Shown: positions 5,072 through 9,299 of the stretch, piece after piece
Layout of the letters: every line of letters starts with the position of its first letter
Numbering within the stretch: position 1 is the stretch's first letter
From: Mycobacteriaceae bacterium
GTDB lineage: Bacteria > Actinomycetota > Actinomycetes > Mycobacteriales > Mycobacteriaceae
Reading direction: 5' to 3'
Assembly: GCA_019242135.1 (NCBI GenBank)
Contig: JAFAWC010000284.1
Location: 1-18,809, forward strand
Length of the DNA: 18,809 bases
The notes under the pieces: model-generated
What the model saw: the letters and a program-made list of their open reading frames with translations, nothing else
Database searches by the model: none
Told to the model about the DNA's origin: nothing
Program-made: the position numbers and the translations under genes

Positions 5072-5455
5072 CTATCGGGGAACACACGTGATCGGGCACA
5101 GCGCGTGGCCGGTATTACTCAGCCGGGCATCTGCCGTCACGAGCGCGCAGCCGAGGTTCTCGGCCAAAGCGACATAACTGGCGTCGTATGCGGAGAAGTT
5201 GTCCCTGAGTTGCCAGATGCGCTCGAACAGGCCGTAAACCGGGTAGCGAGTGACACCAAGGCGGCGCCACACTTCGAGCGCATTCCACCCGTCGGTTGCG
5301 TGCAGGTTTTCGCGCCGGACTAGCCGCCGCAGTCCACTCGCAACTTCAGAATCGATGAGGTGGGGGCCATGCAGGCGTTCGTCAGCAAGTAATTGTCGTG
5401 CGGGCCCGTCGTTCAGCAGAGCCGATAGCGCGGCCGAGGCGTCGACCACGATCAT
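5072..5455 (-). CDS. vapC: VapC-family PIN-domain toxin ribonuclease
   Basis: A 127-residue PIN-domain protein, the usual VapC length. The four acidic residues expected at the metal site are present: D5 (MIVVDAS), E37 (DSEVAS), D91 ([10 protein letters not shown]) and D109 (VTADARL). VapC toxins are Mg2+-dependent endoribonucleases that cleave tRNA or rRNA; the RNA target here cannot be told from sequence. Its ATG overlaps the stop of vapB by 3 nt (ATGA arrangement), so the two are translationally coupled, antitoxin first. The frame is intact, so the toxin is probably functional. The pair lies between gluB and recX, a place where other actinobacteria carry glutamate-transporter genes, which suggests acquisition by transfer. 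Confidence 0.93.
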
Positions 5456-5724: not shown

Positions 5725-6243
5725 CTATATCCGCCGCCGTTCCAGCTCCAGCGCCAGCTCCGTGCGCACGACCTCGAAGCACAGCGTTTCGTTGTAGCCC
5801 CGCCGCGCCAGCATCCCCACCAGCCGTCGCGCCACCTTGGCCTGATCGCCGTCGAGGTTCTCCCGCCGCAATCGGGTCTGCACCAGCCTGGCCGCACGGC
5901 CGTACTCGGCCGGCGCGTCAATGCCGCCCAGCGCCGCGTCGATGACGTCGTTGTCGACACCCTTTGTCCGCAACTCGGCCGCCAACGCTCGCTTGCCCTT
6001 TCCGGCGTTCGCCCGCCGGCCCTGCACCCACTGCTCGGCGAAATCGGCGTCGTTGATCAAACCAACCTCACCAAGGCGGTCGAGCACCTTCGCGCTGACC
6101 GCGTCGGGATAGCCGCGTTTCGTCAGCTGCCCGGCGAGTTCGGCCCGGGTACGAGCCCGCGCGGTGAGCAGGCGCAGACACAGCGCGCGCGCCTGCTCCT
6201 CACGCTTTTCAGAAGTCGACGGGGGCGGGCAAGACGTCGTCAT
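5725..6243 (-). CDS. recX: Recombination regulator RecX
   Basis: A 172-residue all-helical RecX protein that binds RecA filaments and damps RecA activity. It has the three-helix repeats typical of the family: [28 protein letters not shown], then [25 protein letters not shown] and [24 protein letters not shown]. The C-terminal part has [21 protein letters not shown]. The ATG at 6243 lies inside recA, giving a 35-nt overlap in a different frame, an arrangement I recall for mycobacterial recA-recX. The two are therefore cotranscribed and coupled, and recX should be DNA-damage inducible with recA. The length is normal and no defect is seen. Confidence 0.95.
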
Positions 6244-7249
6244 CGGTCACCACGGCGCCAATACCGAGCTTCTCCTTGATCTTCTTCTCGATCTCGTTGG
6301 CCACATCGATGTTCTCCAGCAGGAACGTGCGGGCGTTCTCCTTGCCCTGTCCCAGCTGCTCACCCTCGTAGGTGAACCACGAGCCGGACTTGCGGATGAA
6401 GCCCTGCTCGACACCCATGTCGATCAGCGAGCCCTCCTTGCTGATGCCCTTGCCGTAGAGGATGTCGAACTCCGCCTGTTTGAACGGGGAGGCCACCTTG
6501 TTCTTGACGACCTTGACCCGGGTCCGGTTACCGACCGCATCGGTTCCGTCCTTCAGCGTCTCAATTCTCCTGACGTCCAAGCGAACTGAGGCATAGAACT
6601 TCAAAGCCTTTCCGCCCGTTGTGGTTTCCGGCGAGCCGAACATCACACCGATTTTTTCCCGCAGCTGGTTGATAAAGATCGCGGTAGTACCCGAATTACT
6701 CAGCGCGCCAGTCATTTTCCGCAGCGCCTGGCTCATCAGCCGGGCCTGCAGACCGACATGGCTGTCCCCCATTTCGCCCTCGATCTCGGCGCGCGGCACC
6801 AACGCCGCCACCGAGTCGATGACGAGGATGTCCAGCGCGCCGGACCGGATCAGCATGTCGGCGATCTCCAGCGCCTGCTCACCGGTGTCGGGCTGAGACA
6901 CCAGTAGCGAGTCGGTGTCCACGCCGAGCTTCTTGGCGTATTCGGGGTCCAGTGCGTGCTCGGCGTCGATGAACGCCGCGATGCCGCCGGCGGCCTGGGC
7001 GTTGGCCACCGCATGCAGCGCCACGGTGGTCTTACCCGAGGACTCCGGGCCGTAGATCTCGACGATCCGGCCACGTGGGAGTCCGCCGATGCCCAGCGCC
7101 ACGTCCAGCGCGATCGAGCCGGTGGGGATGACGGAGATCGGCTGGCGCACCTCGTCGCCGAGGCGCATCACCGAACCTTTGCCGAAACTCTTCTCGATCT
7201 GGCCCATCGCCAGCTCGAGGGCCTTATCGCGGTCAGGGGCCTGCGTCAT
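6209..7249 (-). CDS. recA: Recombinase RecA, intein-free
   Basis: A 346-residue RecA, the ATP-dependent strand-exchange protein and co-protease for LexA. Walker A is GPESSGKT at residues 67-74; the LVIDSVAAL Walker B strand, the MSQALRKM loop and the [30 protein letters not shown]2 region are all present. The C-terminus is the usual acidic tail. The coding sequence is continuous: [12 protein letters not shown] stands where M. tuberculosis RecA carries an intein, and the Walker A segment is also uninterrupted. ATG at 7249 has GAGAGG 8 nt upstream. recX overlaps its 3' end by 35 nt. Two promoters lie in the 170 bp upstream (LexA-type and PafBC-type), described separately. Confidence 0.99.
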
Positions 7250-7418: not shown

Positions 7419-8996
7419 CTATCCGCTTTTCTGTCGACCCGCCAGCGCGGCCAGTGCACGCTGCTCCTGCGCATGTGCGGCCGCCGTGAGGTCTCGCTGC
7501 TCACCCACCGGATCGGCGCGCAGCACCGACCCGCTGCCCGGCGCGCCCGCCAACCCCAGCTTGTTCACCCGCTTCGGCACCGGCGCGCCCTGGTACTCCA
7601 ACGAGACCGAACCCAGCGGTTGACGCAGCTCGATGTACGCCCCGTGCGGCAGCCGCCTGACGATCCCCGTTTCCACACCGTGCTCGAGCACCTCCCGATC
7701 GCTGCGCTGCAGCGCGAGCGCCCATCGATAGGCGATGACGTACACGATCGGCGGCAACATCACCATGCCGATCCGCCCGATCCACGTGGTCGCGTTCAAA
7801 GAAATGTGAAACGTCAACGCGATGATGTCATTCATTGAAGCCAGCGTCAGCACCAGGTAGAACGCGATCGCCATCGCTCCGATCGCGGTGCGCACCGGGA
7901 CGTCTCGCGGTCGCTGCAGCAGGTTGTGGTGCGCTCGGTCACCGGTGGCGCGTTTCTCGATCCAGGGATAGGCGAACAACACGACGACGACCGTTCCCAA
8001 GATGACGACGACCCCGGCGGTCGCCGGGACGGTGTAGTTCCCGATGTACAGCTCCCATGCCGGCCACAGCCGCATCAAACCTTCGGTCCACATCAAGTAG
8101 AAATCGGGCTGCGATCCGGCCGATACCTGCGCCGGCTGGTACGGGCCGAGCTGCCAGATCGGGTTGATCTGCAACAGGCCGCCCATCAGGCCAAGGATGC
8201 CGACCGTCATCGCAAAAAACGCACCTGATTTGACTGCGAACACTGGCAGAATCCGCACCCCCACCACGTTCTGTTCAGTCCGACGCGGTCCGGGGAACTG
8301 CGTGTGCTTCTGATACCAGACCAGCGCCAGGTGAATTCCGATCAGCGCCAACATGATTGCCGGCAGAAGCAACACGTGCAGGGCATACATCCGCGGGATG
8401 ATGCTGCTGGGGAAGTCGCCTCCGAAGATCGCCCAGTGCAGCCATGTGCCGATCACCGGTAGTCCGAGCGTGATCGATGACAGCGCGGTTCGCAGGCCGG
8501 TGCCGGAGAGAAGGTCGTCCGGCAACGAATAGCCGAGATACCCCTCGGCCATCGCCAGGATCAGCAACACCACGCCGATCACCCAGTTCATCTCGCGCGG
8601 CCTGCGGAACGCGCCGGTGAAAAACACCCGTGCCAGGTGCACCATGATCGACGCCGCGAACATCAATGCGGCCCAGTGGTGTACCTGGCGAACGAACAGC
8701 CCGCCGCGCACTTCGAAGCTGATGTTCAGCGCGCTTTCGTAGGCGCGCGACATCTGGACGCCTTTAAGTGGTTGGTAGACACCGTGGTAGACGACCTCCG
8801 CCGACGATGGCTCGAAGAACAGCGTCAAATACACCCCGGTGATCAGCAGGACGACGAACGAATAGAGCGCGATCTCACCGAGAAGGAACGACCAGTGGGT
8901 CGGGAAGACCTTGTTGATCTGCCGTCTCAGACCCGCGGCCAGGTGGTAGCGCTGATCGATCGCCTCGGCCGCTCCGCGGCTCAGCGTCGGGCTCAT
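7419..8996 (-). CDS. qcrB: Second cytochrome b subunit of cytochrome bc1 (QcrB paralogue)
   Basis: A 525-residue polytopic protein, clearly a QcrB: the quinol-oxidising cytochrome b of the actinobacterial bc1-aa3 supercomplex. Haem-ligand histidines are intact: H106-x13-H120 (HHWAALMF to VH) and H207-x14-H222 (ALHVLLLP to IH). The Qo-site region keeps PDFY (297-300) and WTEG (303-306), whose Thr and Glu correspond by my alignment to T313/E314 of M. tuberculosis QcrB. Compared with that protein (about 549 residues, from memory) it has a shorter N-terminus and lacks several residues in the C-terminal loop after YIELRQPLG. No qcrA, qcrC or ctaE is adjacent, and M. tuberculosis has no gene here, so I infer an extra copy. 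AGGAGG lies just upstream of the ATG. Operator-like dyads precede it. Whether a standard qcrCAB exists elsewhere cannot be seen. Confidence 0.93.
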
Positions 8997-9006
8997 GGCG
9001 CCCTCC

Positions 9007-9061
9007 TACTACATACTGTAGTAACTTCCAACTACAGACGGTAGTACTAGCCGGCTGTCAA
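9007..9061 (-). promoter_or_regulatory. Promoter of the qcrB paralogue with twin BlaI/MecI-like operators
   Basis: TACTACA-TAC-TGTAGTA (9007-9023) is a dyad with perfect 7-base arms. A second, weaker dyad ACTACA-GAC-GGTAGT (9031-9045) has one mismatched pair; the two centres are 23 bp apart. A consensus -35 TTGACA lies at 9061-9056 on the minus strand. The second dyad falls between this -35 and the expected -10, and the first ends at the Shine-Dalgarno sequence. TACTACA/TGTAGTA arms are typical of BlaI/MecI-family operators, although the 3-bp centre differs from the 2 bp I recall for the staphylococcal mec operator. The regulator gene is not in this window. I could not identify a convincing -10 box. 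Confidence 0.65.
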
Positions 9062-9093: not shown

Positions 9094-9288
9094 CTACCAC
9101 TGATCGCGGGGAACGTCGAAGTCGATGCACAGGGCCCGCCACACGTCGCGGGGGTCGACGCCGTCTTCGATGGCTTGCGCGGCCGTCCGGCCGCCCAGGT
9201 TGGTCAGCACGTGGTCGGCGAGCACCGACGCCCCGTAGGCAGCGCCGAACCGGCCGGTGACCAGTTCGTGGAATTCGGTCAGCCGCAT
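9094..9288 (-). CDS. DUF3046 small protein (Rv2738c-like)
   Basis: A 64-residue soluble protein of the actinobacterial DUF3046 family, starting MRLTEFHELV, with NLGGRTAAQAIEDGVDPRDVWRALC in the middle and ending FDVPRDQW. Families of this kind have no assigned role, though the gene typically lies close to recA. I use the ATG at 9288, which gives the usual family N-terminus; an in-frame TTG at 9297 is possible but less likely. It begins 11 nt after the glycosyltransferase stop, so it is probably translated from that transcript. In M. tuberculosis it directly follows recA; here the qcrB paralogue is inserted between them. Confidence 0.88.
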   Translation of the reverse strand: MRLTEFHELVTGRFGAAYGASVLADHVLTNLGGRTAAQAIEDGVDPRDVWRALCIDFDVPRDQW

Positions 9289-9299
9289 CGGGGCCAAAC

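Follow-up and report, generated by a model that had tools for sequence, protein, structure and literature searches.

A standalone cytochrome b gene, a paralogue of qcrB, lies on the minus strand of the window (the whole stretch of 18,809 nucleotides analysed here) and is preceded by two dyads which, judged from their sequence, very probably belong to the operator class of the repressor BlaI. The window is one contig of a Mycobacteriaceae assembly of 3.81 megabases (Mb) that is 84% complete. QcrB is the target of telacebec (Q203), and residues of the menaquinol/inhibitor (Qp) pocket are altered in the paralogues that carry such operators, a point absent from an earlier account based on the letters of the window only (the sequence-only reading). 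It seems reasonably probable that the gene encodes a reserve cytochrome b that has an altered Qp site and is kept repressed by BlaI until oxidative phosphorylation is impaired: a mecA-like logic in respiration. The features concerned are as follows.

7419..8996, minus strand: standalone cytochrome b gene, qcrB paralogue, 525 amino acids (aa), with Pfam Cytochrome_B and Cytochrom_B_N_2 matches
9002..9007, minus strand: AGGAGG ribosome-binding site, from sequence; base 9007 is common to operator 1
9007..9023, no strand: operator 1, perfect dyad, predicted BlaI box, from sequence, with half-sites and spacing as in 31/31 blaI operators
9030..9046, no strand: operator 2, predicted second BlaI box, with one mismatch to TACKAC-N5-GTMGTA
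9056..9061, minus strand: TTGACA, possible -35 hexamer, from sequence; the promoter scan gave no promoter-like pair

Operator 1 (TACTACATACTGTAGTA) fits TACTACA-N3-TGTAGTA with no mismatch and operator 2 (AACTACAGACGGTAGTA) with two. The starts of the dyads are separated by 23 base pairs (bp), and the dyads start 27 and 50 bp upstream of the paralogue, just where the sequence-only reading had placed twin BlaI/MecI-like operators. That reading called the second dyad weaker, which holds for this pattern; against the mycobacterial BlaI box TACKAC-N5-GTMGTA, however, it shows a single mismatch, and its half ending in ACGGTAGTA is similar to many blaI operators. In shuffles, the chance expectation for TACTACA-N3-TGTAGTA sites with up to three mismatches in the whole window was 0.01, and two dyads together appeared in 0/200 shuffles. 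The perfect dyad occurs once in the 3.81 Mb assembly and is present in 7/148 genomes of the genus, against 3/148 for the reversed control. On the minus strand the order is TTGACA (9061-9056), dyad 2, dyad 1, AGGAGG (9007-9002) and ATG (8996). The dyads do lie between TTGACA and the ribosome-binding site, as had been read; a sigma-70 scan of the dyad region gave no promoter-like pair, so that the promoter of the paralogue is a putative one.

The assignment to BlaI is supported by comparison with blaI itself. TACGAC-N5-GTAGTA is found upstream of the blaI gene of the present genome, and all 31 loci compared (the present one and the 30 best PF03965 loci) have the half-sites and spacing of the operator in front of blaI. 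The whole assembly has one Penicillinase_R (PF03965) match, beside a BlaR-type protease gene. This BlaI protein aligned to 2g9w over residues 1-127 (E 2.6e-67); the structure file describes 2g9w as a conserved hypothetical protein, and we take it to be the BlaI of Mycobacterium tuberculosis. Among five other genomes with a boxed paralogue, one PF03965 match each was found in G005, G046, G070 and G116, and four in G029.

At zero mismatches, TACKAC-N5-GTMGTA is present in only three places of the present assembly, namely the promoter of the paralogue, the blaI promoter and a site before the atp genes, compared with one place for the control pattern. The atp box lies 251 bp before an open reading frame (ORF) with a weak, below-cut-off ATP-synt_I match, and atpB comes next. 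The sequence-only reading had suggested that blaI, the beta-lactamase gene and the atp genes might share the motif. The first and the last of these places were found, whereas no beta-lactamase gene lies at any of the three; blaC was not located in this 84% complete assembly. The sites with one mismatch include dyad 2, a site starting 75 bp before the ctaD match and a site that precedes a gene for a COX15/CtaA-type heme A synthase. The last one (L314:2473-2489; G000:C704:4472) is beside ABC transporter-like genes. The other one-mismatch sites inspected (at L002, L005, L095-L097, L099, L100, L102, L313, L315 and L316) are inside predicted ORFs and were taken as chance occurrences.

In relatives, the box is found before cydA and atpB (zero mismatches) and before ctaD (one mismatch) in 30/30 loci each, these being the 30 best-matching loci for each gene from searches of 60 genomes. 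Control stretches of matching length, taken from 100 bp inside the gene onwards and in the case of atpB running beyond it, had the box in 0/30 at up to two mismatches. No cydA match was found in the present 84% complete assembly. In addition, relatives have a related element, mostly AACTAC-N5-GTCATA, 25-26 bp ahead of their ctaE match. The best site in 64 distinct upstream stretches had one mismatch in 8, two in 55 and four in 1. A box with at most one mismatch was found at 8/83 ctaE loci (some of which may overlap), all from Rhodococcus, Williamsia, Gordonia or Nocardia. In the mycobacterial loci displayed (for example L195, L200 and L053), the sequence 25-26 bp before ctaE is AACTACAAAGCGTCATA, with hardly any variation. 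It should also be mentioned that a perfect TACTACA-N3-TGTAGTA lies just upstream of a similar gene of 182-191 aa in four genomes (G020, G127, G137 and G039). The L040 copy of this gene has a Pfam Glyoxalase match, and the gene might be a further BlaI target.

Several of these genes are known targets. Binding of M. tuberculosis BlaI to the promoters of cytochrome bd and ATP synthase is reported (PMC5473688, citing Sala 2009), and for the Rv1303 promoter an electrophoretic mobility-shift assay is described (PMC12565901). BlaI control of atp and cydAB is already published, and the qcrB paralogue is the addition; no report of BlaI control of such a paralogue was found in the literature consulted, where the main regulon paper, Sala 2009, is known through citing papers only. 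The present system resembles the M. tuberculosis BlaI (Rv1846c) regulon in having the same repressor orthologue and the box at blaI, the atp operon and cydA. It differs in the standalone qcrB paralogue with its two boxes, and the boxes at ctaD, the ctaA-like gene and ctaE-qcrCAB are known here from sequence alone.

The paralogue is a full-length homologue of canonical mycobacterial QcrB. Its top solved-structure match is the QcrB chain 7e1v_N, with an alignment spanning residues 7-523, and it is 82% identical over the match to the canonical QcrB of the same genome. It is encoded outside ctaE-qcrCAB, the canonical ctaE-qcrC-qcrA-qcrB operon being on another contig (C554); qcrA and qcrC are not adjacent to it, and no qcrA match was found nearby. 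It differs from canonical QcrB also in its control region, where twin consensus boxes stand in contrast to the weak element before ctaE.

For comparison, 148 distinct qcrB copies were used, of which 107 were canonical (qcrA directly upstream) and 41 standalone. The loci had been picked by similarity to the window protein and are thus a biased sample. A box within 200 bp was found in 13/41 standalone copies and in 2/107 canonical ones, both of the latter at -200. The boxed copies come from at least 12 genomes of the genus and from a single Gordonia; the former number is a lower bound, since second copies were only partly covered among the 396 genomes. Gene neighbourhoods differ among the boxed copies. 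A second box-like dyad with at most three mismatches is present at 15 bp in all 11 other mycobacterial boxed copies, compared with 23 bp in the window, and the Gordonia copy has one box-like dyad plus an overlapping one with three mismatches. In a quick tree, four changes of the boxed label were needed, two of which are forced by the starred branches. Joining the Gordonia copy to the mycobacterial boxed copies was rejected by the approximately unbiased (AU) test (p-AU 0.0004), and at least two origins of boxed paralogues are thereby shown. The claim of several independent origins within the mycobacteria was dropped after the AU test of a single mycobacterial origin. The 28 standalone copies without a box fall in many cases into clades of their own and are changed at 310, 317 and 396. 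Genes 71-74% identical to that of the window were also seen in records titled Bifidobacterium breve and Acidobacteria bacterium, which are probably mislabelled or contaminated assemblies. The terms "second qcrB" and "qcrB2" occur in PMC7931247, a paper on Streptomyces coelicolor.

Residues of the Qp pocket are given in M. tuberculosis numbering through a structure-match alignment, and the pocket contacts are taken from PMC8616580. The window copy differs from canonical QcrB at 158, 310, 317 and 342, and it shares A158, L310, M317 and L342 with the four boxed copies nearest to it. A second boxed group (three copies) has P313, D314 and Q317, a third (three copies) has M184 and Q317, the boxed copy of G269 has P313 and M317, and the Gordonia boxed copy has L317, the canonical copy of that Gordonia having Ala there. 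Residue 317 is M in 6, Q in 6 and L in 1 of the 13 boxed copies, and A in 88, I in 17, L in 1 and V in 1 of the 107 canonical copies; M or Q occurs in 12/13 boxed, 0/107 canonical and 0/28 unboxed standalone copies. A scan of 522 columns for rare residues, meaning those present in at most one canonical copy, ranked 317 first, and it was the sole column with rare residues in 5/5 boxed groups; 178, 184 and 313 were among the six columns hit in two groups. Such a result arose in 0/2000 shuffles, a figure that is too favourable because the shuffle assumes five independent groups. The unboxed standalone copies are altered at other sites, 396 being changed in four of six groups. Residue 317 is a Q203 contact (PMC8616580), A317V is called a Q203-resistance change, and M342V/I leads to resistance to AX compounds (both PMC6178619). 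A list of screened codons includes 313, 317, 342 and 396 (PMC6325196).

These features can be combined in the following model. The two dyads would be tandem operators for the chromosomal repressor BlaI, dimers of which would extend over the DNA from the promoter as far as the ribosome-binding site and shut off the qcrB paralogue. The paralogue would be part of a BlaI oxidative-phosphorylation regulon together with blaI-blaR, ATP synthase, cydAB and ctaD, which might be extended by the ctaA-like gene, on account of its box in the present genome, and by ctaE-qcrCAB, on account of the weaker conserved element in relatives. Under impaired oxidative phosphorylation, inactivation of BlaI by BlaR would allow the second cytochrome b to be made, which might be able to take the place of QcrB in the bcc-aa3 supercomplex. 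The changes at its Qp pocket probably make this protein less sensitive to natural inhibitors of the Qp site, and it would act as an inducible spare target. Impaired oxidative phosphorylation seems to be a likelier signal than wall stress, since the genes that carry the box are respiratory. In M. abscessus, ATP synthase and cydAB rise under clofazimine (PMC8765290), and in M. smegmatis, cydA and qcrB rise under Q203 (PMC9498996). Both compounds induce known BlaI targets, and BlaI may be the mediator. The identity of the operators is strongly inferred; the signal and the inhibitor insensitivity are put forward as hypotheses.

A number of observations weigh against this model. With regard to the boxes, the degenerate pattern at zero mismatches had 198 sites in 40 genomes compared with 171 for the reversed control, and in the present genome, at up to one mismatch, 19 sites compared with 53. 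The whole-genome count was accordingly rejected as proof of a regulon, and because these counts hardly exceed the control, the case is carried by position and conservation. In 28/30 loci the atp box, some 700 bp ahead of atpB, falls on the very end of the upstream frame (last codons and stop), and in the present genome it also overlaps the stop codon of the upstream gene. Its conservation may thus be partly coding, and it could be either a binding site overlapping a coding end or a coding coincidence. Moreover, 11/30 ctaD boxes and 1/30 cydA boxes are inside a predicted ORF of at least 100 aa. With regard to regulation, Crp1 also controls cydAB in M. smegmatis (PMC7739888), and amoxicillin-clavulanate in M. 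tuberculosis raised cydAB and lowered atpC, atpG and atpH (PMC5473688). Since cydAB rose while the atp genes fell, BlaI targets need not move together.

With regard to the pocket and its history, the window copy retains T313 and E314, and position 317 varies in some canonical QcrBs (the 17 with Ile). The pocket is only weakly enriched for changes among conserved columns: uncorrected Fisher p values at the 90% threshold were 0.03-0.04 for the window's group of five, 0.1 for Gordonia and 0.3-0.4 for the other seven copies. The pocket argument consequently rests on residue 317 and the column scan. A single origin of the 12 mycobacterial boxed copies was not rejected and was even the likelier arrangement (p-AU 0.69), which means that the five boxed groups of the scan are not independent. 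Finally, the L195 genome, a relative as judged by its canonical copy, has one qcrB only, in an assembly of unstated completeness.

Among other explanations, it is possible, if somewhat unlikely, that the paralogue is controlled by BlaI and that its Qp changes are an adaptation to another quinone pool, redox poise or oxygen level, not to inhibitors. The affected residues 158, 310 and 342 line the menaquinone site (PMC8616580), the box-bearing genes are respiratory, and the unboxed standalone copies have recurrent changes of their own (396, 310 and 317), all of which would agree with such an adaptation. However, the most consistently changed column of the boxed copies is 317, which is not among the menaquinone residues shown in that paper.

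The sequence-only reading linked a BlaI-controlled cytochrome b to beta-lactam or cell-wall stress, so that respiratory composition would be tied to wall damage. The operators were borne out, but this signal is less supported and is considered unlikely. In its favour are the BlaI-type boxes themselves and the induction of blaR-blaI, along with cydAB, by amoxicillin-clavulanate in M. tuberculosis (PMC5473688). On the other hand, the BlaR of the present genome (320 residues) has Peptidase_M56 and M48 matches only, and no beta-lactam sensor was found among its domain matches. This agrees with the statement that the extracellular beta-lactam sensor is missing from the BlaR orthologues of mycobacteria (PMC5473688). 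The fall of the atp genes under the same treatment points in the same direction, as does M. abscessus, in which cefoxitin changed relatively few genes whereas clofazimine raised ATP synthase and cydAB (PMC8765290).

It is equally improbable that selection on the paralogue is relaxed and that it is a drifting duplicate, its boxes and pocket changes being of little function. The distribution is patchy, the window copy is among three long end branches of the tree, and one stop was flagged within the matched span of three boxed matches (G029, G338 and G188). Nevertheless, these three loci still have open frames of 549, 521 and 525 aa, boxes occur at several loci, across 12 genomes of the genus and a Gordonia, and 21-23/336 conserved non-pocket columns are changed in the window's group of five. 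The use of the dyad by a regulator other than BlaI (of CopY, TetR or Crp type) is very unlikely: the assignment does rest on sequence comparison and some genomes have several PF03965 proteins (13 in G095), but there is one such protein in the present assembly and in 4/5 other boxed genomes searched, and the box is found at the blaI promoter in every locus compared and at promoters with reported M. tuberculosis BlaI binding (PMC5473688).

The paralogue is placed, in the same orientation, between two genes whose names are presumptive.

6209..7249, minus strand: presumably recA, downstream neighbour, from its translation
9094..9297, minus strand: 67-aa ORF, presumably Rv2738c-like, upstream neighbour

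Slightly downstream of recA, a PIN-domain protein of 127 aa is encoded (5072-5455, minus strand), possibly a VapC-type toxin.

The reserve-cytochrome model can be compared with staphylococcal mecA, in which MecI or BlaI represses an alternative, altered version of a drug target. In both cases a repressor of the BlaI/MecI family would stand over an altered version of a drug target. The target here is cytochrome b instead of a penicillin-binding protein, no beta-lactam sensor domain is seen in the BlaR, and the repressor genes are not beside the target gene. The spacing of the core is also different, N3 in the window as against N2 in the staphylococcal TACA-N2-TGTA.

There is a real possibility, a little short of an even chance, that in some mycobacteria and at least one Gordonia a respiration block switches on an inhibitor-insensitive spare cytochrome b, held under BlaI operators and changed in its Qp pocket at sites bound by bc1-targeting drugs, and that BlaI is mainly a regulator of oxidative phosphorylation and not of the beta-lactam response. 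If so, a repressor-controlled spare QcrB would account for some natural differences in drug sensitivity and would point to natural Qp-site inhibitors in mycobacterial habitats. BlaI would be recast as an oxidative-phosphorylation regulator, and the question of what mycobacterial BlaR senses becomes testable.
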